NCBI GenBank assembly: GCA_900542565.1 | Contig: UQOC01000013.1 | Span: 1-47,537 of the forward strand | Length of the DNA stretch: 47,537 bases | DNA from: an uncultured Eubacteriales bacterium | Lineage (GTDB): Bacteria > Bacillota > Clostridia > Peptostreptococcales > Anaerovoracaceae | Reading direction: 5' to 3' | Part shown: positions 9,851-44,281 of the stretch, piece by piece | Layout: each line of letters opens with the position of its first letter | Position numbering within the stretch: the first letter of the stretch is position 1 | Notes under the pieces: model-generated | The model's input: only the letters and a program-made list of their open reading frames with translations | What the model was told of the DNA's origin: nothing | Databases searched by the model: none | Program-made: the position numbers and the translations under genes

Positions 9851-10537
9851 ATGGAGATTACTTTAGAAAAGATCGAACTGGTGAAAGACAGGACAGGAGT
9901 ATCATATAAGGAAGCCAAAGAGGCTCTTGAAGCTGCAGACGGCAGCGTGGTAGATGCCATCATCGCCATTGAGGAGACGGTCAACATCAGCACCGGAAGC
10001 AAGGCAGGCGAATTTGCCAACGAAACTGTGGAAAAGGTCAAAGAGCTGGTCAAAAAAGGCAATATCACCAAGATCTCAGTAAAGAAAGATGACGAGACCA
10101 TCGTCAACATACCGGTCAATATCGGGCTCATCGGCACCATTGTAGCTCCTTGGGGCATTTTGGCCGCCGCCATCGCAGCATTCGGGTTCAAATGCAAGAT
10201 AGAGCTGACAAAGGACGATGGCACTGTTGTAGATGTCAGCCGCAAGGCAGAAAACCTCGCAAATGATGTCAAGGAAAAAGGTTCCGTTGTGGTAGACGAA
10301 GTGGTTGCAAAAGGAACTGCCGTTTATGACGGTGTTATGGAAAAAGCGCCGGAAATGGTCAACGACATCAGGGAAAAAGGAACTGATGCTTATAATTCAG
10401 TAGTAAATAAAGCTACAGAAGTATGGTCAGGTATAAAAGAAAAGAAAAATGCTGCCGAAGAAGAGGTGGAGGAAGCATTTGATGCAGCTGAGGAAAAGAT
10501 AGATGACTTTTTCGACGGCGATGACGAAGAAAAATAA
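9851..10537 (+). CDS. DUF4342 protein with UBA-like N-terminal domain
   Basis: The first 45 residues (TLEKIELVKDRTGVSYKEAKEALEAADGSVVDAI) form a UBA/TS-N-like three-helix fold, as in EF-Ts. A central strand region follows, ending in a hydrophobic segment at about residues 90-115 (NIGLIGTIVAPWGILAAAIAAFG) that may enter the membrane. The last 90 residues are charged and helical with repeated VKEKGS/VREKGT-type turns and an acidic tail. This matches DUF4342 proteins of Clostridia, whose function is unknown. It lies between recO and glyS in the operon, with AAGGAGG upstream. Confidence 0.8.
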   Translation: MEITLEKIELVKDRTGVSYKEAKEALEAADGSVVDAIIAIEETVNISTGSKAGEFANETVEKVKELVKKGNITKISVKKDDETIVNIPVNIGLIGTIVAPWGILAAAIAAFGFKCKIELTKDDGTVVDVSRKAENLANDVKEKGSVVVDEVVAKGTAVYDGVMEKAPEMVNDIREKGTDAYNSVVNKATEVWSGIKEKKNAAEEEVEEAFDAAEEKIDDFFDGDDEEK

Positions 10538-12011: not shown

Positions 12012-14261
12012 ATGAGTGAATTTCTCTGTTCCTTTAATGAAGGCAACAGGAAGATGAAAGAGCTCCTGGGAGTAAAAGGAGCAAATTTATCTGAAATGAC
12101 AAGCATGGGGCTTCCGGTTCCTTTCGGCTTTGTGGTGACAACCAGAGGATGTAAAAAATTCTTTGACAATAACTGCATGTTCAGCGAAGATATGTTCCTT
12201 TCCCTCCAAGAGAAGATCCAAGAGCTGGAAGAAGTCACAGGAAAGAAATTTGGCAGCGGGGAAAACCCGCTGCTTGTTTCAGTGCGTACAAGTTCCGTAG
12301 TAAGTCTGCCTACAATGGCACATACGGTGCTCAACCTGGGCCTCAACGATAAGATTGTAGGCGGCATAGCCGATGAACAAGGAAGCCTGGAGATAGCAAT
12401 GGACTGTTATACCAGATTCCTGCGTACATACGGCACCGTCGTCAGAGGAATAAAGGAAACGGAATTTTTATCTGCATACGGCGCTATCAAGAAGCAGGCC
12501 ATGGCCTCTGATGAATATTCAGAAGAAGCTGTCCTTTTTAAAGCAGTTGAAGTATATAAGAACATCATACTGTCCAGATCGGGACGGCCGATACCGGAAG
12601 ATCCATATGACCAGCTCAAAGAAGCGATAGGAGCAAATCTATGCTATTGGCTTTCTGAAGAAACCCGTGTCTACAGAGAACTGCACGAGATCCCTGACGA
12701 AATATACACTGCCGCAGTGGTACAGGCAATGGTATATGGCAATTTTGATGTGAATTCATGTGCCGGCACTGTTTTTACGAGAGATCCCAATACAGGAGAA
12801 AAAGTGCTGTTTGGAGAATTCCTCATCAAAGCCCAGGGCAGCGACAGTTCTTTCAAGGATATGACTGCCGTGCGTATCGAAAAGATGGGGGATTTTTTCC
12901 CTCAGCTATATGACCAGTTTATCAGGATCGCTGCTCTCCTGGAAAAGTACAATCAGGATATGCAGGAGATCGAATTTACCATACAGCAAGGCAAGCTGTA
13001 CATGCTGGAGACAAAGAGCGGACGAAGGACTCCGTCGGCTGCCGTGAAGATCGCAGTGGAGATGGTAAAAGAAGGGCTCATCACCAGAGCCACCGCTGTG
13101 GCCAATCTGAGAGCTGAGGATATAAATGACCTTGTTATCTTCGGGATCAAAAAAAATGAAGACATGAACCCGGAAACCACCGCCAATTTCCATACCATAC
13201 TTGAGTGGGCTGACGAATTCCGGGATATGGGAGTGCGGGCCAACATTGATACGCCTGAAGACGCTAAGCTGGCGCTGAGGCTGGGAGCCGAAGGCATAGG
13301 CCTTTGCAGGACCGAGCATATGTTTTTCAGCGAAGAAAGGATATACGATTTTATCCGCATGATAATCGCAGATAACGATGAGGAGCGCAATGAGGCGCTG
13401 AAGGTGCTGAAACCTTACCAGAAAGAGGATTTTAAAAAAATCTTCACTATCATGGAGGACAGGCCTGTGACCATAAGGCTGCTGGATCCGTCCCTGCACA
13501 ATGTGCTCCCTCATTCAGAAAAGGATATCAGGGCTCTTTCCCATCAGCTGGACATATCAGAAAAGAAGCTGGCAGCAAAGATAATACTTCTCCACGAAGA
13601 AAATCCTGAACTGGGCCGCAGGGGAAGCCGTCTTGCCGTAACTCATCCGGAGATAGCAAGGATGCAGACGGAGGCGGTCATAGAAGCGGCGTGGGAAGTA
13701 AGGCAGGAGAATTCTTTCGAGCCTGACATTTCCATCATGGTGCCTTTTGTGAGCACTGCCCGTGAGTTTTATTATGTGAAAGATCTGATCGATGGCGCTG
13801 CCCAGGGAACATTCAAGAAGATAGGCGCAGAGATAGACTATACTGTAGGGACTATGATAGAAACTCCAAGAGCGGCTCTTTTATCCGGATCCATTGCAGA
13901 AAGGGCCGATTTCTTCTCCTTTGGCACCAATGATCTTACGGAGCTCATTTACGGACTTTCAAGAGCGGATACAGAGGAACTCATCGAAGAATATATCGAG
14001 AAAGACATATTGGATAAAAATCCTTTCTACTCACTGGACAAGACCGGAGTGGGAAGCCTGATAGAAAGTGCTGCTCTGTCAGGCAGAAAGATCAAACCAA
14101 AACTGAAGATAGGCCTCAGCGGCGATCATGGCAGCGACCCTGACAGCATAGAATTCTGCCAGAGTATAGGAGTAGATTATTTTTCATGTTCCACGCTGAG
14201 GATACCCGGTACGCGCCTTGCAGCAGCTCAGGCCCATATAAGGGCGTACAGGAACAGATGA
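12012..14261 (+). CDS. Pyruvate phosphate dikinase homologue lacking the phosphohistidine domain
   Basis: The family normally moves phosphate from ATP to pyruvate through a swivelling domain with a catalytic His. This 749-residue protein has the ATP-grasp domain (1 to about 380) and the PEP/pyruvate TIM barrel (about 390-749) joined directly. The swivel domain (GGMTSHAAVVARG in Clostridium symbiosum PPDK) is absent, which accounts for the roughly 125-residue shortfall from about 875. Barrel residues remain: LCRTEHMFF, TIRLLDPSLH, GTMIETPRAAL, FGTNDLTE and the catalytic Cys in YFSCSTLRIP. The ATP site is altered: the SGARASMPGMMD loop reads TSSVVSLPTMAH, and the usual Asp and Gln ligands read as Glu (QEIEF, LETKSG). 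The frame is intact. It probably cannot run the normal reaction alone. Confidence 0.9.
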   Translation: MSEFLCSFNEGNRKMKELLGVKGANLSEMTSMGLPVPFGFVVTTRGCKKFFDNNCMFSEDMFLSLQEKIQELEEVTGKKFGSGENPLLVSVRTSSVVSLPTMAHTVLNLGLNDKIVGGIADEQGSLEIAMDCYTRFLRTYGTVVRGIKETEFLSAYGAIKKQAMASDEYSEEAVLFKAVEVYKNIILSRSGRPIPEDPYDQLKEAIGANLCYWLSEETRVYRELHEIPDEIYTAAVVQAMVYGNFDVNSCAGTVFTRDPNTGEKVLFGEFLIKAQGSDSSFKDMTAVRIEKMGDFFPQLYDQFIRIAALLEKYNQDMQEIEFTIQQGKLYMLETKSGRRTPSAAVKIAVEMVKEGLITRATAVANLRAEDINDLVIFGIKKNEDMNPETTANFHTILEWADEFRDMGVRANIDTPEDAKLALRLGAEGIGLCRTEHMFFSEERIYDFIRMIIADNDEERNEALKVLKPYQKEDFKKIFTIMEDRPVTIRLLDPSLHNVLPHSEKDIRALSHQLDISEKKLAAKIILLHEENPELGRRGSRLAVTHPEIARMQTEAVIEAAWEVRQENSFEPDISIMVPFVSTAREFYYVKDLIDGAAQGTFKKIGAEIDYTVGTMIETPRAALLSGSIAERADFFSFGTNDLTELIYGLSRADTEELIEEYIEKDILDKNPFYSLDKTGVGSLIESAALSGRKIKPKLKIGLSGDHGSDPDSIEFCQSIGVDYFSCSTLRIPGTRLAAAQAHIRAYRNR

Positions 14262-14299
14262 TCGCCGGCCGGCAGACCGGACGGGTAAGCCGGATATTA

Positions 14300-15709
14300 T
14301 CAGGTGATAGCGTAAACAGACAGGACAGCCAGCAGGATAAGCAGCACAAAAGCGGCTTTGTCGGTAAAGGTCGGAAATATCTTGCCGCCGTTTTCCCGTC
14401 TGGCAATGACATAGAGGATGGTGCCGGGGACATAAAGCAGGGCTGATACAAGAAGATGACGCACATCGCTGGCATACAGCATCCATATCCCATAAAGACT
14501 ACCAAGAAATGAGTAGATCAGAGGTCCTATCTTTTTATTGCCATTTTCACCTTCGCCGCGCCATGTAAGTTTGAGACAGTAAAAGGCAGAAAGAGCATAA
14601 GGGACCATGATGGCGCTGGTAGAAAGGGCATATATGACCTGATATGTCGCGCTGTTAAAATAGGCAACGATCAGAAAGATCTGAGTGACCAGAGTAGTTA
14701 TAAGGACGCCGCCTGCCGGCGCTCCTTTTTTGTTTTGTCTTGCAAAAGCTCTGGGAAAGCAATGCTGCAAGGCAGGCGCATATATGCTGTCGACGCATAG
14801 GATAGTATAAGTAAACAAGGCACCTCCGACAGATATTATCACGCCTGTATTTACAAGGGTGCTTCCCCACGGACCGGCCACTGCCCCAAGAAGAAAAGCC
14901 ATCGGAGGATTTCCAAGGATCGCAAGTTCTTCTGTCCTCATGACTCCCATGCTCAGTATGGAAACTGTAACATAAAGGACAAACAGGCATACAAAGGCCA
15001 GGACAGTAGCTTTTCCTGATACCGATGTACTTTTTGCCCGGCCGGAAATGACCACTGCCCCTTCAATGCCGACAAAGACCCAGACTGTGGTATATACGGT
15101 GGAGCGCACCTGCTCCATAAGTGAGAAGCCGCTGCCCTGGCCTGTCATATTACCGGTAAGGATGTTCCAGTCAAAGGCTCCGGAAAATATGATCGTCCCT
15201 ATCATGACGGCAATGGGTATGATCTTGGCAATGACAACTATCGTGTTGATGGAGATGGCTTCATTGACGCCGCCCATGACAAGCAGTCCGAATCCCCAGA
15301 TCATGGCCGATCCGGCTATCAGAGAAACAAGATTTGTGCCGTTGCCGAATATGGGGAAAAAGTTGCCCAGAGAGTCAAAAAACAATGTGATGAGAGAAAG
15401 ATTGCCCAGCAGAGCGCTCAGCCAGAAGCCCCATGCGGAGTTAAAGCCTATATACTCGCCGAAACCGTTTTTTGCATAGCTGTACAGGCCGCTTGTAAGC
15501 TGCGGCCGTATCACGCTCAGCCGGAAAAAACACAGGGTGAGCATCAGCATCCCAAGGCCGGCGATCATCCATCCGATAAGGACGGCAAGTGGATGGGCGC
15601 CTCCTGCGGCAAAATCCCCGGAAAGGCTGAAAACGCCGCTTGCGAGGGTCGCGCCAATGGCAAACATGGTGACTTTTCCGAGACTTAGTCCTCTTTTATT
15701 ATCTATCAT
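14300..15709 (-). CDS. APC-superfamily basic amino acid permease or antiporter
   Basis: The 469-residue protein has about 12 membrane segments and the APC opening GLSLGKVTMFAIGATLASGVF, with SGLYSYAKNGFGEYIGFNSAWG in helix 3 and VFVGIEGAVVISGRAKS in helix 6. The last is typical of the basic amino acid/polyamine antiporter group (ArcD/LysP-like). ATG 15709 lies 5 bases after GGAGG; an ATG four codons earlier would overlap that site. It is divergent from the lysine-linked sigma-54 activator, so lysine or a related amine is a reasonable substrate guess. I saw no sigma-54 promoter in the 170-bp gap. Confidence 0.85.
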   Translation of the reverse strand: MIDNKRGLSLGKVTMFAIGATLASGVFSLSGDFAAGGAHPLAVLIGWMIAGLGMLMLTLCFFRLSVIRPQLTSGLYSYAKNGFGEYIGFNSAWGFWLSALLGNLSLITLFFDSLGNFFPIFGNGTNLVSLIAGSAMIWGFGLLVMGGVNEAISINTIVVIAKIIPIAVMIGTIIFSGAFDWNILTGNMTGQGSGFSLMEQVRSTVYTTVWVFVGIEGAVVISGRAKSTSVSGKATVLAFVCLFVLYVTVSILSMGVMRTEELAILGNPPMAFLLGAVAGPWGSTLVNTGVIISVGGALFTYTILCVDSIYAPALQHCFPRAFARQNKKGAPAGGVLITTLVTQIFLIVAYFNSATYQVIYALSTSAIMVPYALSAFYCLKLTWRGEGENGNKKIGPLIYSFLGSLYGIWMLYASDVRHLLVSALLYVPGTILYVIARRENGGKIFPTFTDKAAFVLLILLAVLSVYAIT

Positions 15710-15800
15710 AATGACCTCCATTTGAGTTATGCACTATTTATAGTATTCATGTTTTTGATGGTAAAATACATTTTTTATGATCCAAATACAAATCGCGACA

Positions 15801-15828
15801 TTGACATTTTACTGACATACCGTATAAT
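15801..15828 (+). promoter_or_regulatory. Consensus promoter for the sigma-54 activator gene
   Basis: -35 TTGACA (15801-15806), a 16-bp spacer and -10 TATAAT (15823-15828) lie 53 bp before the regulator ATG; a second TATAAT overlaps at 15828-15833. This is a strong housekeeping-type promoter. The segment also has TGACAT repeated (15802, 15812), which could be part of a binding site, but this is weak evidence. Confidence 0.7.
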
Positions 15829-15880
15829 ATAATATTTAAGAAACAGGCCCGGTACGCAGGAAAGCATATGAGGTAAAAAG

Positions 15881-17962
15881 ATGAAAGATTTCGGATCAGA
15901 ACGGGTAACAGAACCTCCCGGCACAATACCTTCCATGGCATGGAAACTGGACAATTCAAGAGAGATCGGCGACAAAGAGATGCGAGTCGGATTGCGTGCC
16001 ATTAAACTTGAGTGGAATAATTTTAATCAGATATGCAGCAGCTGTCATTACACTGAATCAAAGATCAAGGCCAGGATAGAGGAAATAACCGCAAAGCGGG
16101 GAAAACTGCAGAACCCGTATACTCAGAGCAGCGGAGTACTGTATGGCGTAGTGGATGAAGTAGGAACTCTGTGGGAAGGGGAGGACTTTAAGGGAGGCGA
16201 CAGTGTCATAAGCCTGACTTCCACTGCAGGCCTGCCGGTACATATTGATGCTGTAGACGAGATAGATTATGATTACGGGATCATATGGTGCAGAGGCTAT
16301 GCTGTGCTATTTGAGTCAGCAAAACTTGCTCTGATGCCTGATGATGTCATGACCGGGCCATTCATGTGCGCCATAGATGCGGAAGGAAGCCTGGTGGATG
16401 TGAGAAATGCCCTTGTGGACAGGAAACCGCAGAATATAGCCATAATGGGCAGTAATTTGGTCGATATAATGCTCTATGCCCAGATGGTACGGCTGTCAGA
16501 AGCAGTAACCGGCGTGACCGCCAGGGTCATCGCCATAGTTGAGAAAGATACTCTTTCATATCTGAGTGAAAAAGAATTTCTCAAGACTTTTTCCGGACTT
16601 ATCGACGGAGTATATTTTGCCGACATGACAAAGCCTGTTGATGCTGCTTTAAGGATATACAGGCAGGAGGGACTCAGGTATCTTGATGCGGTCATAAATC
16701 TGGAAGATATACGGGGAGCTGAGAGTATTGGCGCTCTGATAGTCAGGGATACGGGATTTCTGTTCCATGCCGGAGTAAAGGGCAATTATTTTCAGAGCCT
16801 GATCGCCGCTGATTGCCTTGGAAAAGAAATAGCCAGCTTTGCTCTGGACGGGTATTCAAGAGATGCATGCCCTTTGGCTACTGAAGTCACCAGAAAGTCC
16901 GAGAAAAAATTCAAGGCCCTTAACGGTCTCATGTCATCAAAGCCTGCCAGGAAAATGATCAAACATGCCGGAATGAACCAGAACAGGGCCGGGGCAGCAA
17001 GACGCATAGAGGATTTTGTATTCGCCAGCCCGGTAATGGCTGATGTGGTAGATATGGCGCTGAATGTGGCAAGATATGACTGCAATGTGATAATACAGGG
17101 GGAAACCGGAGCCGGAAAAGAAAAGGTATTGGATCTGATCCACCAGAACAGTTCAAGAAAAGGCAAACCATGTGTAAAGATAAACTGCGCGACCATACAG
17201 GAAAATCTCGCTGAGTCAGAATTTTTCGGATATGAAAAAGGAGCCTTTACAGGAGCACAGGCATCCGGCAAACAGGGGTATTTTGAGCTGGCAAATAACG
17301 GTATCCTATTTCTGGATGAGATAGGGAGCCTGCCTCTGTCCATGCAGTCAAAACTGCTCAGGGCTCTTCAGGAAAATGCTTTTTACCGGGTAGGAGGAAC
17401 CGAGCAGAAAACAGTAAATGTAAGGGTGATATGCGCCAATAACATACCGCTGAAGAAACTGGTCGATGAGGGAAAATTCAGAGAAGATCTCTACTACAGG
17501 CTCAACATATGCCTGATCGAAGTGCCGCCGCTGCGCAAGCGGCCCGAAGATATAGCCTGCCTTGCCGAGACATTTATGAGAAAGTACAGTCACAAGTACG
17601 GCATAGAAAAAACATTTTCTCAGGAGGCAGAGGACGCCCTGTGCAGGTATCACTGGCCAGGCAATGTCAGGGAACTGGAGAATACCGTCCACCGCCTTTA
17701 CATAACGGCCGGGAGCAGCGTGATCGAGGGTGAGGAGGTGGATGACCTGCTCAACGACAGTTTTTATGATGATCTGATGATAGACCTGAAAAAAGACCTG
17801 CGCGGCATGGAGGCCATAGATTTTAACTATATAATGGAAGAACAGGAAAGAAAACTCATATCTTATGCCCTGAAAAGAGAAAAGACGACAAGAAAAGCTG
17901 CGGATTTTCTTAATATACCGCAGGCAACGCTTGCCAGGAAAAAGATCAAATATGACCTGTAA
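15881..17962 (+). CDS. Sigma-54 activator with a 3,5-diaminohexanoate dehydrogenase-like sensor domain
   Basis: Residues 1 to about 345 follow the lysine-fermentation enzyme L-erythro-3,5-diaminohexanoate dehydrogenase (Kdd) from end to end: RVTEPPGTIPSMAWKLDNS at the start, KRGKLQNPYTQSSGVLYGVV, then a Rossmann-like half. The glycine-rich nucleotide loop reads IMGSNLVDIML, so dehydrogenase activity is doubtful. Residues about 376-605 are a sigma-54 AAA+ domain with Walker A GETGAGKE (407), GAFTGA (454), ILFLDEIG and REDLYYRLN. The last 35 residues form a Fis/TyrR-type HTH (TTRKAADFLNIPQATLARKK). The GAFTGA loop means it should activate RpoN promoters. The likely signal is the Kdd substrate or a related lysine breakdown product. 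GAGG at 15870 serves the ATG. Confidence 0.9.
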   Translation: MKDFGSERVTEPPGTIPSMAWKLDNSREIGDKEMRVGLRAIKLEWNNFNQICSSCHYTESKIKARIEEITAKRGKLQNPYTQSSGVLYGVVDEVGTLWEGEDFKGGDSVISLTSTAGLPVHIDAVDEIDYDYGIIWCRGYAVLFESAKLALMPDDVMTGPFMCAIDAEGSLVDVRNALVDRKPQNIAIMGSNLVDIMLYAQMVRLSEAVTGVTARVIAIVEKDTLSYLSEKEFLKTFSGLIDGVYFADMTKPVDAALRIYRQEGLRYLDAVINLEDIRGAESIGALIVRDTGFLFHAGVKGNYFQSLIAADCLGKEIASFALDGYSRDACPLATEVTRKSEKKFKALNGLMSSKPARKMIKHAGMNQNRAGAARRIEDFVFASPVMADVVDMALNVARYDCNVIIQGETGAGKEKVLDLIHQNSSRKGKPCVKINCATIQENLAESEFFGYEKGAFTGAQASGKQGYFELANNGILFLDEIGSLPLSMQSKLLRALQENAFYRVGGTEQKTVNVRVICANNIPLKKLVDEGKFREDLYYRLNICLIEVPPLRKRPEDIACLAETFMRKYSHKYGIEKTFSQEAEDALCRYHWPGNVRELENTVHRLYITAGSSVIEGEEVDDLLNDSFYDDLMIDLKKDLRGMEAIDFNYIMEEQERKLISYALKREKTTRKAADFLNIPQATLARKKIKYDL

Positions 17963-18058: not shown

Positions 18059-18298
18059 TTACAGCATCATTTTGTTCTGGTATGAGAAATCTTTCCCTGC
18101 TTCTCTGATGGTTTCAAGACCGGCAACGATAGTTGCCCTGATCTCATCGTCAGTAAACTCAACATTTTCCCTTTCGGCATAAGCTTTCATGGAAGTGGCA
18201 AGGACATCTTCCAGGATATCTTCGTCGTCAATTGAATTTACATTGATCTCTGTAACCGCATCTCTAAAGGCTTTGTCAAGCATTTCTTTCTTACTCAT
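18059..18298 (-). CDS. Small acidic protein of unknown function
   Basis: The 79-residue product starts MSKKEMLDKAFRDAVTEI and is rich in Glu, Asp and Ala with predicted helices throughout, no Cys pair and no membrane segment. GGAGGTAT sits 7 bases before the ATG, a strong ribosome binding site. It is a single-gene unit between the shared terminator and a 235-bp gap before pyrR. I do not recognise the family. Confidence 0.65.
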   Translation of the reverse strand: MSKKEMLDKAFRDAVTEINVNSIDDEDILEDVLATSMKAYAERENVEFTDDEIRATIVAGLETIREAGKDFSYQNKMML

Positions 18299-18533
18299 TT
18301 TTTATACCTCCTGTATATGAATCACTGTCTGTTTTATTTTGTTTACACATATTTTTTAAGCAAATATCGTGCCAAAATAAAAGCAACTGGAAAAATGCCG
18401 GTTTTTCAATGTTCGTGAACAGGAGGGCAGCAATTTCATATTTGAACGCCATACAATATGATCCAATATTGAATCAAAAAACGCAAATGTTGAGTAAAAA
18501 ATGAATCTGATGGCCGTAACACCTGTGCGCCTT
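18299..18533. other. AT-rich intergenic gap, presumed promoter of the small acidic protein
   Basis: The gap holds the ribosome binding site of the small gene at its left end. At 18459-18477 a CAATATTGAATC-like segment sits near GATCCAATATTGAATC, a short imperfect repeat. No terminator with a clear U-tract was found for pyrR. No gene is visible. Confidence 0.35.
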
Positions 18534-20641: not shown

Positions 20642-21643
20642 ATGGACTTGATCTTGTATCTCGGTGCGATCATCACAGGCTACATTGTCGGAAGCGCAGC
20701 CAGGAGCAAAAAAGAAAAAATGGCCTGGACGGGAAAGGTCCAGACTGTGGCCATCATAATCCTGGTGCTCGGTATGGGTGCGAGAATGGGCGCCAACAAG
20801 GAGATAACTGATAATCTGAGCTCAATAGGGTTGTCAGCTCTTATCATGACCATGGGGGTCATGGCGGGAACGATAGGAGCCCTTTTTATTACCCGTAAGA
20901 TCCTGGGAATGGACAGATACGGACGGATACATAAAAAGTCTGAAAAAACCCAAGAAGAAGAGGCCGAGACCGTCAAGGAAAGTCTCAGGACCATAGAAGA
21001 GGACGAAAAAAAGCAGGGGTCGAACTCCATGACGGTGATAATACTCATTTCAGTGGCAATAGGAATGCTGTTCGGATTCTTTGTGATAAGAGATGTATTT
21101 GCCGACAATATGGCAGATTTTGAATATTGGGCCGGACTTATCGTCAAAGCTGGTCTGACTGTACTGCTTTTCTTTATAGGTATAGACCTGGGCCTGGAAG
21201 GTACAGTTATAGAAAACTTCAAAGCCGTGGGCGTAAAGATCGTGATAATACCAATAGCGGTGATCTTGGGAACGCTCATTGGAGCGGCGGCCATGTCTAT
21301 CTTTATAGGAGTGAGCGTAAAAGAGGCCCTTGCCATAGGAGCAGGTTTCGGATGGTATACGCTGGCTCCCGGCATACTGATGGAAGCCGGTTACCTTACG
21401 GCAAGCGCCATCAGTTTTCTCCACAATGTGATGCGTGAATTGTCGTCTATAATATTTATACCGATAATCGCGAAAAAGATAGGCTATCTTGAGACAACAG
21501 GGATGCCGGGTGCGGCGGCCATGGATGTGTGCCTGCCCATCGTGGAAAAGGCCACAAGGAGTGATGTGGCGGTTTATGCGTTCGTATCGGGTTTTGTATT
21601 GAGCATATTGGTGCCAGTGATGGTGCCGATCATAATAGGGTAG
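20642..21643 (+). CDS. LysO-family lysine exporter homologue, first copy
   Basis: LysO (YbjE, formerly DUF340) exports L-lysine and toxic analogues across the inner membrane. The 333-residue protein has about eight membrane helices and a charged cytoplasmic loop at residues 98-128 (KKSEKTQEEEAE). The C-terminal half carries the family pattern GAGFGWYTLAPGILMEAG, SFLHNVMREL, PIIAKKIGYLET and AAAMDVCLPIVEKATRSDVAVYAF. AAGGAGA lies before the ATG. A paralogue follows after 3 bases. Two tandem copies are unusual, as the E. coli exporter is one gene; they may form a pair or differ in substrate. Confidence 0.82.
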   Translation: MDLILYLGAIITGYIVGSAARSKKEKMAWTGKVQTVAIIILVLGMGARMGANKEITDNLSSIGLSALIMTMGVMAGTIGALFITRKILGMDRYGRIHKKSEKTQEEEAETVKESLRTIEEDEKKQGSNSMTVIILISVAIGMLFGFFVIRDVFADNMADFEYWAGLIVKAGLTVLLFFIGIDLGLEGTVIENFKAVGVKIVIIPIAVILGTLIGAAAMSIFIGVSVKEALAIGAGFGWYTLAPGILMEAGYLTASAISFLHNVMRELSSIIFIPIIAKKIGYLETTGMPGAAAMDVCLPIVEKATRSDVAVYAFVSGFVLSILVPVMVPIIIG

Positions 21644-21646
21644 ATC

Positions 21647-22645
21647 ATGGCGTTACTTGCATTATATTGGACAATAATGATAGGCGGTTACCTCCTGGGC
21701 TGCAGATTACGCCATAAGAGGGAAAGATTCCTGTTTGTGGAGGAACTTACAAATATCGTGATATACATCCTCGTTCTGATAATGGGACTGAGGATGGGCA
21801 GCAATGAGGAAGTGACTTCAAGTCTCGGCACCATTGGGCTGCAGTCGCTGATGATAACCGTGATGACAGTCGGCGGAAGCATGGTGTTCGTATTCTTTGC
21901 CAGACGGATCCTGAAGCTGGATAAAGAGGGAATGCCCATAAGAGAGGAAGAACAGGCAGAAAAGGCTGATGCTGATGGCAGCAGCGGGGGCGGACTGAAG
22001 TTCACAATGCTGATAATGGCATTTGTGGCGGCAGGAATGATCGCCGGATATTTTGCCCTGCCTCAGATCTACAGTCAGGTCCTGCACAGAAATGTGGAGG
22101 ATTTCCAGAATGTGTCAGGAGACTGGCTTGTCATAGGCATATGTGTCCTCCTGGCTCTTGCCGGATTTAACCTGGGTATTTCAGGCAACATATTTGAGAG
22201 GTTTAAGGGTACAGGGTTTAGGATCCTTCTCGTGCCTGTGGCGGCAGTGGCTGGAAGCCTTATCATGGGAGCGGCATACAGCCTGATAATGTCCCTGTTC
22301 ACAGATGATGGGCTGTCTGTAAAGGAAGCCGTTGCTGTCAGCGCCGGATTCGGATGGTATACCTTTGTTCCCGGCATATTAACAGAAGCCGGATTTGCCG
22401 TGGCAGGAGCCGTGTCGTTCATGCATAATGTCATAAGGGAAACCCTCGGTCTGGTGGCGATACCTGTAATAGCGAAAAAAATAGGGTATCTGGAAGCGAC
22501 CAGCGTGCCTGGGGTCTCTGCCATGGATGTGTGCCTGCCGCTGATAGAAAGAAGCTGCCGGCCGGAAACTGTAGTATATTCGTTTTGTACCGGCGCACTC
22601 ATGTGTGTTACAGCTCCTGTGACAGTAACGCTTTGTGTTGGATGA
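21647..22645 (+). CDS. LysO-family lysine exporter homologue, second copy
   Basis: The 332-residue protein is a full-length paralogue of the preceding one, with the same order of motifs: SAGFGWYTFVPGILTEAG, SFMHNVIRETLG, PVIAKKIGYLEA and SAMDVCLPLIERSCRPETVVYSF. It also has a charged loop, at residues 95-115. No ribosome binding site is visible in the 3-base gap, so translation is probably coupled to the first gene. The similarity points to tandem duplication followed by divergence. With the Kdd-like sensor 3 kb upstream, it suggests that lysine flux matters to this organism, but that link is inferred. Confidence 0.82.
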   Translation: MALLALYWTIMIGGYLLGCRLRHKRERFLFVEELTNIVIYILVLIMGLRMGSNEEVTSSLGTIGLQSLMITVMTVGGSMVFVFFARRILKLDKEGMPIREEEQAEKADADGSSGGGLKFTMLIMAFVAAGMIAGYFALPQIYSQVLHRNVEDFQNVSGDWLVIGICVLLALAGFNLGISGNIFERFKGTGFRILLVPVAAVAGSLIMGAAYSLIMSLFTDDGLSVKEAVAVSAGFGWYTFVPGILTEAGFAVAGAVSFMHNVIRETLGLVAIPVIAKKIGYLEATSVPGVSAMDVCLPLIERSCRPETVVYSFCTGALMCVTAPVTVTLCVG

Positions 22646-43171: not shown

Positions 43172-43200
43172 AGACGCCCGCCGGGGCGTCTTCGTTTATT
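43172..43200 (+). terminator. Plus-strand terminator hairpin
   Basis: AGACGCCC (43172-43179) pairs with GGGCGTCT (43184-43191), followed by TCGTTTATTTT. It would stop plus-strand transcription before the convergent ligase gene. Confidence 0.7.
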
Positions 43201-44257
43201 TTGCTGAACAACATTCGATTATCTTGTCTATCACATCGGGATATGAAAGGCCTACGCCTGCCATCATTTTTGGAAAACGGCTCACAGATGTGAAGCCCGG
43301 TATGGTGTTGGCTTCACTGAAAATGATTTCTTTGTCAGGGGTAAGGAACATGTCGATGCGCGCAAACCCTTTGCAGCCAAGTATCCTGAACAGTTTTCTG
43401 CCTGTGTCGTTGACACGCTTTTCTGTTTCCGGGTCGAGACGGCCTGGGCTATGTATCTTTGAATCTACTCCTGTATATTTCTTTGTGTAATCGAAGAAAC
43501 AGCCTGTAAACAGCTCAATTTCGTCTACACGGCCGACGATCTCGACATTCTTTCCGTCTCCGATGACCGAACAGCCTACTTCAAATCCGTTGATCTTTTC
43601 CTCTATGATAAGCTCGTCATCGTATTGAAGGGCGAGGTTGACCGCATCCATCAATTCACCTGCGCTTTCTATGACGGAAATACCGTAGGACGACCCTGCC
43701 CTGACAGGCTTGACGAACAGCGGGTAGGTCAGGTCTGCGGTGGCCTCTCTGACAGTGGCTTCATCAAAATCCCTGGTCAGGAAGCAGGCCTTGGGGACTG
43801 CGATCCCGGCAGCTTCTGCCAGTACATGAGCTCTGTATTTATCCATGCATAAGGCAGATGAGAGGGTGCCGCATCCCATCAGGTCAATGCCGGCCATTTC
43901 TATGAGGCCCTGGACGGTGCCGTCTTCCCCGTTTTTTCCGTGGAGCATGGGAAAAGCGCCGTCAAGTCTTGTAAACGCAGGCCCTTCCGGACGGAGTTCT
44001 ATCAGCCCGTGGACTGCACGATCCGGCACGATATATGCCGGCGTGCAGTTTTCTTTGTCCTGCTGCCATGTATCTGCTTTGACATTTTCCGGATCACCAT
44101 CGTACCTGAACCATCTTCCGTCTTCTGTGATGCCTATGGCTATGACATCGTATTTATCACGGTTTATGTTGGTAAGGACGGCATAGCCAGAGCTGAGGGA
44201 AATAAGATATTCGCTGGAGCAGCCGCCAAAAAGAACGGCTATTTTTTTCTTGTCCAT
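43196..44257 (-). CDS. VanG-type D-Ala--D-Ser/D-Ala ligase homologue
   Basis: The 353-residue ATP-grasp protein joins two D-amino acids for peptidoglycan. The sequence follows VanG-type D-Ala--D-Ser ligases: IAVLFGGCSSEYLISLSSGY, MLHGKNGEDGTVQG, SSALCMDKYRAHVLAEAAGI, PLFVKPVRAGSSYGI, GFEVGCSV, and the active loop DEIELFTGCFFDYTKKYTG, with the C-terminal SEANTIPGFTSVSRFPKMM. Ordinary Ddl enzymes have a different loop. No vanT racemase, vanXY peptidase or vanRS genes flank it, so it is an orphan homologue; D-Ala or D-Ser use cannot be read from this alone. ATG 44257 follows AAGGAG; GTG 44260 is also possible. Confidence 0.85.
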   Translation of the reverse strand: MDKKKIAVLFGGCSSEYLISLSSGYAVLTNINRDKYDVIAIGITEDGRWFRYDGDPENVKADTWQQDKENCTPAYIVPDRAVHGLIELRPEGPAFTRLDGAFPMLHGKNGEDGTVQGLIEMAGIDLMGCGTLSSALCMDKYRAHVLAEAAGIAVPKACFLTRDFDEATVREATADLTYPLFVKPVRAGSSYGISVIESAGELMDAVNLALQYDDELIIEEKINGFEVGCSVIGDGKNVEIVGRVDEIELFTGCFFDYTKKYTGVDSKIHSPGRLDPETEKRVNDTGRKLFRILGCKGFARIDMFLTPDKEIIFSEANTIPGFTSVSRFPKMMAGVGLSYPDVIDKIIECCSAK

Positions 44258-44281
44258 CACAATACTCCTTTTTGAATAGGG

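Follow-up and report, generated by a model that had tools for sequence, protein, structure and literature searches.

A probable sigma-54 activator with a dehydrogenase-like sensor that lacks the cofactor loop, and its relatives at lysine-fermentation operons

We found by computation that the window (the whole stretch of DNA analysed here, 47,537 nucleotides) encodes a regulator in which a domain with the fold of 3,5-diaminohexanoate dehydrogenase (3,5-DAHDH or KDD), having lost its cofactor loop, is joined to a sigma-54 AAA+ domain and a probable helix-turn-helix (HTH). Relatives of this protein are paired with kdd in their genomes, and -24/-12 promoters and operator-like sites accompany the family. 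We are fairly confident in the working model as a whole, in which the regulator is a one-component sigma-54 activator and its sensor is a 3,5-diaminohexanoate dehydrogenase minus the cofactor loop. The features of the window are collected in Table 1.

Table 1. Regulator, neighbouring genes and regulatory sites in the window
Feature	Positions	Strand
KDD-like sensor + sigma-54 AAA+ + HTH regulator, 693 aa	15881..17962	+
Sensor domain, residues 1-345, KDD / MDR fold	15881..16915	+
Degraded cofactor loop GSNLVDI, residues 190-196	16448..16468	+
Asp311, at the place of Glu310 of 3,5-DAHDH (alignment)	16811..16813	+
Sigma-54 interaction AAA+ domain, residues 381-546; GAFTGA at 454-459	17021..17518	+
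HTH, residues 651-693, under the Pfam gathering score	17831..17959	+
Sigma-70-like promoter TTGACA-N16-TATAAT before the regulator (by inspection)	15801..15828	+
Weak operator-like palindrome with 2 mismatches, in the permease-regulator gap	15779..15794	.
Divergent basic amino acid/polyamine antiporter; TIGR00905 over cut-off	14300..15721	-
79-aa protein, predicted sigma-54 target, three-helix model	18059..18298	-
-24/-12 promoter TTGGCACGATATTTGCTT, the window's only exact match	18358..18375	-
Predicted operator GATCCAATATTGAATC	18460..18475	.
Second, weaker predicted operator, 2 mismatches, 32 bp from the first	18492..18507	.
Two LysO-type lysine exporter genes (context only)	20642..22645	+

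A dehydrogenase fold without its cofactor loop

The initial annotation had described an N-terminal part that follows KDD, with a changed glycine loop, fused to an AAA+ domain with GAFTGA and a HTH, and our analysis bears this out. The KDD fold (7dl0, 7dl3) was matched over residues 1-349 and the sequence agrees, scoring 114.9 bits with the KDD model NF052381, which misses the curated cut-off of 200; no better match of the N-terminal part to another family was found. Only one of the four loop residues, the first glycine, is left in GSNLVDI, and the lysine and the histidine invariant in KDDs (KDD residue 325) are both missing. The AAA+ domain reaches 216.6 bits with PF00158 (Pfam cut-off 20.2), its GAFTGA motif starting at residue 454, and the C-terminal HTH reaches 22.2 bits with HTH_50, under the cut-off of 27; a relative (L105:2258) scores 37.1.

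According to a review (PMC9902596), Glu310 governs the substrate range of 3,5-DAHDH. An acid is kept at this place in the window sensor, in the shorter form of an aspartate, and the equivalent residue is D or E in all 54 tabulated sensors (of 78 aligned). A dehydrogenase fold that lacks the cofactor loop and retains the substrate-side acid is best interpreted as a receptor, with a ligand of diamino-acid type.

The fusion family comprises 119 proteins found, and a genome search with the N-domain alignment returned 60 loci; scanning the genome contigs with a single protein as query returned none. The records with fusion loci include Aminicella lysinilytica, Emergencia timonensis, Hornefia butyriciproducens, Clostridium aminobutyricum, Acidaminobacter hydrogenoformans, Anaerovorax and Sinanaerobacter. 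Our gene calls are longest-ORF picks, in which antisense ORFs replace some genes and some starts are over-long. On these picks the regulator cluster is present in 60/60 loci, and frames uncut by contig ends run to about 680 to 720 residues, except at L021, where from position 9995 onward the frame falls into two ORFs that overlap (400 and 306 aa), through a frameshift or an assembly error.

A quick tree search over 78 sensor domains and 27 KDDs gave a fully supported branch that separates sensors from KDDs; being rooted on the KDDs, the tree cannot distinguish a placement of the sensors inside that group from one next to it. In the first-branching regulators (L101, L104 and L109), three or all four of the loop residues are preserved, and after them come a lysine-operon clade and a large clade that is mostly transporter-associated. 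The window regulator belongs to the latter, grouping with L001, L002, L003 and L005 (support 100). Behind the L101 fusion stand a KDD-like gene, genes for the three parts of a TRAP transporter and one for BKACE (beta-keto acid cleavage); L104 has the same neighbour clusters and L109 only the KDD-like and BKACE clusters. The pairing of the fusion with a cognate dehydrogenase therefore extends beyond the kam operon. These three fusions could be half-converted sensors for another substrate.

Relatives at lysine-fermentation operons

The initial annotation had pointed to kam/kdd genes and RpoN in the genome as a check. We searched 49 genomes of relatives, starting from 50 fusion loci, and found KDD over the family cut-off in 47 (G014 and G022, the remaining two, each have one fusion-length match) and RpoN over its own in 46 (the exceptions being G022, G034 and G049). 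In a sample of 98 genomes from one order, a KDD match was present in 70 and a fusion-length frame was listed in 12, all with a KDD-length frame as well. Since 58 of the 70 KDD carriers have no fusion, lysine fermentation does not need it.

We then consider 20 stretches hand-chosen for the presence of KDD, most with a long frame close by. Fusion and KDD adjoin in 18 of them, with one gene between in L107; by the gene calls, the fusion is absent from L103 and KDD from L105. Kam genes stand in the operon for 15 of these 18, and the gene-by-gene annotation of L092 gave kal, kamA, kamB, kamC, kamD, kamE and two CoA-transferase subunits. Eight loci (L091-L095, L097, L106 and L108) carry two kdd copies per lysine operon, some of the second copies with a short insertion near residue 60.

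A paralogue of the window regulator stands at the head of lysine operons in related anaerobes. Because sister regulators head lysine-fermentation genes, the enzyme fold has probably been turned from processing a lysine-type nutrient to reading it, and the ligand of the operon copy is likely lysine itself or a breakdown intermediate. When the L092 lysine-operon proteins were compared with the window, only KDD and the regulator gave matches, both at the window regulator gene. The proposal of a sensor for lysine breakdown stands as regards a KDD-derived sensor with paralogues heading lysine operons, but the window copy falls in another clade than the operon copy and its ligand, we infer, may be either lysine or a different basic amino acid.

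Promoters of the -24/-12 type, which the initial annotation suggested seeking near kam and kdd genes, do occur in the relatives' lysine operons, both before kdd and on the kal side. With our own weighting (maximum score 17.7), sites of at least 16 lie in the interval that separates kdd from the regulator, upstream of kdd, in 13 of the 15 kam stretches (not in L096 and L098), and on the kal side in 12 of the 15 (not in L096, L098 and L107). By the gene calls, kal is the next gene from the kal-side site in eight, and the L102 site overlaps an over-long kal ORF. Across the 20 chosen stretches, 31 sites scored at least 16.5 (0.6 expected). Upstream of the promoters, the palindrome GAACC-N6-GGTTC is exact in 14 of 79 promoter-upstream stretches (one region, L051 = L105, being counted twice), all of them lysine-operon loci, and a one-off copy occurs in 12; mononucleotide shuffles gave 0 exact and 0.1 one-off copies for this palindrome, which was found and counted in the same stretches. 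At L099, three related genes of 470-494 codons stand in a row (14318, 16306 and 18256, minus strand), each with its own -24/-12-like site (16.5-16.6).

A small gene as the predicted target in the window

We predict from sequence that the 79-aa gene is the target of the regulator in the window. The only exact -24/-12 promoter in 47.5 kb has the highest possible score and lies about 60 bp before this gene, which has an AGGAGG ribosome site; sites with one mismatch are not enriched in the window (3 versus 1.93 expected). The earlier idea of a link between substrate and RpoN-driven expression keeps its sigma-54 output, and RpoN accompanies the fusion in most genomes, but the clearest target here is this small gene and not kam or kdd.

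Homologues of the small protein adjoin regulators at other loci. An iterated profile search grew the list to 21 ORFs in 20 loci, window included, the least certain being L027, L034 and L036. A site of at least 15.3 lies within 200 bp upstream of 16 of the 21; it overlaps an over-long start in L003 and L060, and no such site was found for L004, L014 and one of the two L017 ORFs. At L005 the promoter is at the right place and a homologue was not found. The profile matches 83 database proteins, of which the named ones are mostly 'hypothetical' and one is 'phage holin'. The predicted fold is a three-helix one (pLDDT 78.6). We found nothing in support of a precursor peptide, and no Pfam family scored over its cut-off. 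Apparent tandem small genes in L008, L020 and L035 proved to be in-frame copies inside single ORFs of 228, 247 and 260 aa.

The operator pattern, which derives from the site in the window itself, occurs 14 times with no more than two mismatches (0.28 expected) in ten regulatory stretches belonging to the window's clade, and pairs spaced 31-33 bp recur in L001, L002 and L005; the permease gap of L003 has no such site, and over the whole window the two-mismatch pattern is not enriched (5 versus 9.6 expected). Inverted letters TGTTC/GAACA were noticed by eye near 18410.

The divergent permease of the window was likewise considered as a sigma-54 target and discarded, as no -24/-12 site is seen before it (best score 10.5). 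No site of at least 14 lies just before the LysO-type genes, pairs of which also occur near regulators in L005, L006 and L038. Farther away, a D-alanine ligase gene (43196-44260, minus strand) has its closest match in the VanG D-Ala-D-Ser ligase model, with 490.8 bits against a cut-off of 495.

By a rule of our own, 41 regulators have a divergent gene next to them; among these, sites of at least 16 precede NhaC-family genes in 22/24 cases, EamA-family genes in 9/9, Tet35-like genes in 2/2, other genes in 1/3, and the APC permease in 0/3 (window, L001 and L003). In L001-L060 plus the window, 48 sites scored at least 16.5, against 2.8 expected. Directly after the L017 regulator lies a gene of about 1600 codons (12080-16849, plus strand); it encodes a NadD-like nucleotidyltransferase domain (897-1060) and an HD-type motif recognised by eye, and its cluster recurs in L013, L014, L016, L026 and L035. 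An LDH-like gene follows it, and then, in five of the six loci, an FMN-reductase-like gene.

Working model, alternatives and known systems

In the mechanism that we propose, the regulator gene would be expressed from the sigma-70-type promoter and its product would sit on palindromes upstream of the -24/-12 promoter. A small lysine- or diamino-acid-type ligand would fill the old substrate pocket of the sensor and free the AAA+ ring, so that the sigma-54 polymerase is opened. The gene switched on would be the 79-aa gene in the window and, for sister proteins, the lysine fermentation operon with kal, or a transporter gene. We infer ligand binding, its effect and activation itself.

A serious contender, to which we give somewhat less than an even chance, is that the sensor reads something else (ornithine, another beta- or diamino acid, or a polyamine) and that the window copy answers a non-lysine nutrient. 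The window copy lies in the transporter-associated clade, adjoins an antiporter for basic amino acids or polyamines, and has Asp where the operon clade has Glu; transporters of several families stand by its relatives. Against this, two lysine-exporter genes lie 2.7 kb downstream of the window regulator and the lysine operon is present in the three closest genomes examined (G001-G003). We consider it rather unlikely that the regulator acts chiefly on other loci of the genome, be it an NhaC-type transporter or the lysine operon, with the small gene as a side target: the frequent promoters before NhaC-family genes of relatives would fit, as would L002, of the window's clade, which keeps NhaC with such a site while the window locus has no NhaC, but the site at 18358 combines the highest possible score with the best operator and the small-gene arrangement recurs in relatives.

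It seems very improbable that the sensor still binds NAD(P) and reports the redox state, or is still an enzyme. The fold is intact and the loop residues of the three first-branching regulators are largely in place; the window loop, however, retains its first glycine only, and the lysine and the invariant histidine are gone.

Returning to a receptor for a lysine- or diamino-acid-type ligand, we lean towards a broader picture, in which a lysine-fermentation dehydrogenase gave rise to a class of sigma-54 activators with stepwise decay of the loop, partly kept in the first-branching members and lost in the rest examined. The early duty of the class would have been to read a substrate of the cognate dehydrogenase and to switch on its operon; paralogues would then have taken on transporters and a new family of small three-helix proteins, with an operator of their own in each clade. 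This would give bacterial lysine fermentation, which is a route to butyrate, a candidate regulator where the literature that we found names none, and add an enzyme-derived sensor to the sigma-54 activators. The intermediates suggest how a catalyst became a receptor, and the small protein family, without known function, is a testable target.

MocR/GabR regulators likewise have a sensor that derives from an enzyme related to the pathway under their control; they differ in having an aminotransferase fold and a GntR-type DNA-binding domain, and in not acting through sigma-54.

We found no description of the fusion in the literature that our searches returned, including PMC9902596, PMC3149608, PMC6033044, PMC12316311 and PMC6615313; subscription papers or supplementary tables may hold one. 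Within these sources, what we describe is an established activator class with an enzyme-derived sensor not described earlier. Lysine 2,3-aminomutase is listed among sigma-54-controlled genes in Bacilli (PMC12316311). The one-component sigma-54 activators surveyed in Clostridiales (PMC6615313) share with our protein the order of sensor, AAA+ and (here probable) Fis-type HTH and the placing of operators, predicted ones in our case, upstream of -24/-12 promoters, and amino acid catabolism is a frequent target among them. The KDD fold is not among the sensor kinds that we saw named there (PAS, GAF, PrpR_N, ACT, V4R and others), and the word 'lysine' is absent from the survey's main text. The best NCBIfam match of the regulator is PrdR (NF041552), over residues 375-691, which span the AAA+ domain and HTH only (331 bits, cut-off 795). 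With KDD (7dl0, 7dl3), the window protein shares the fold of its sensor and the acid at the place of Glu310, but it lacks the cofactor loop and is fused to a transcription activator.
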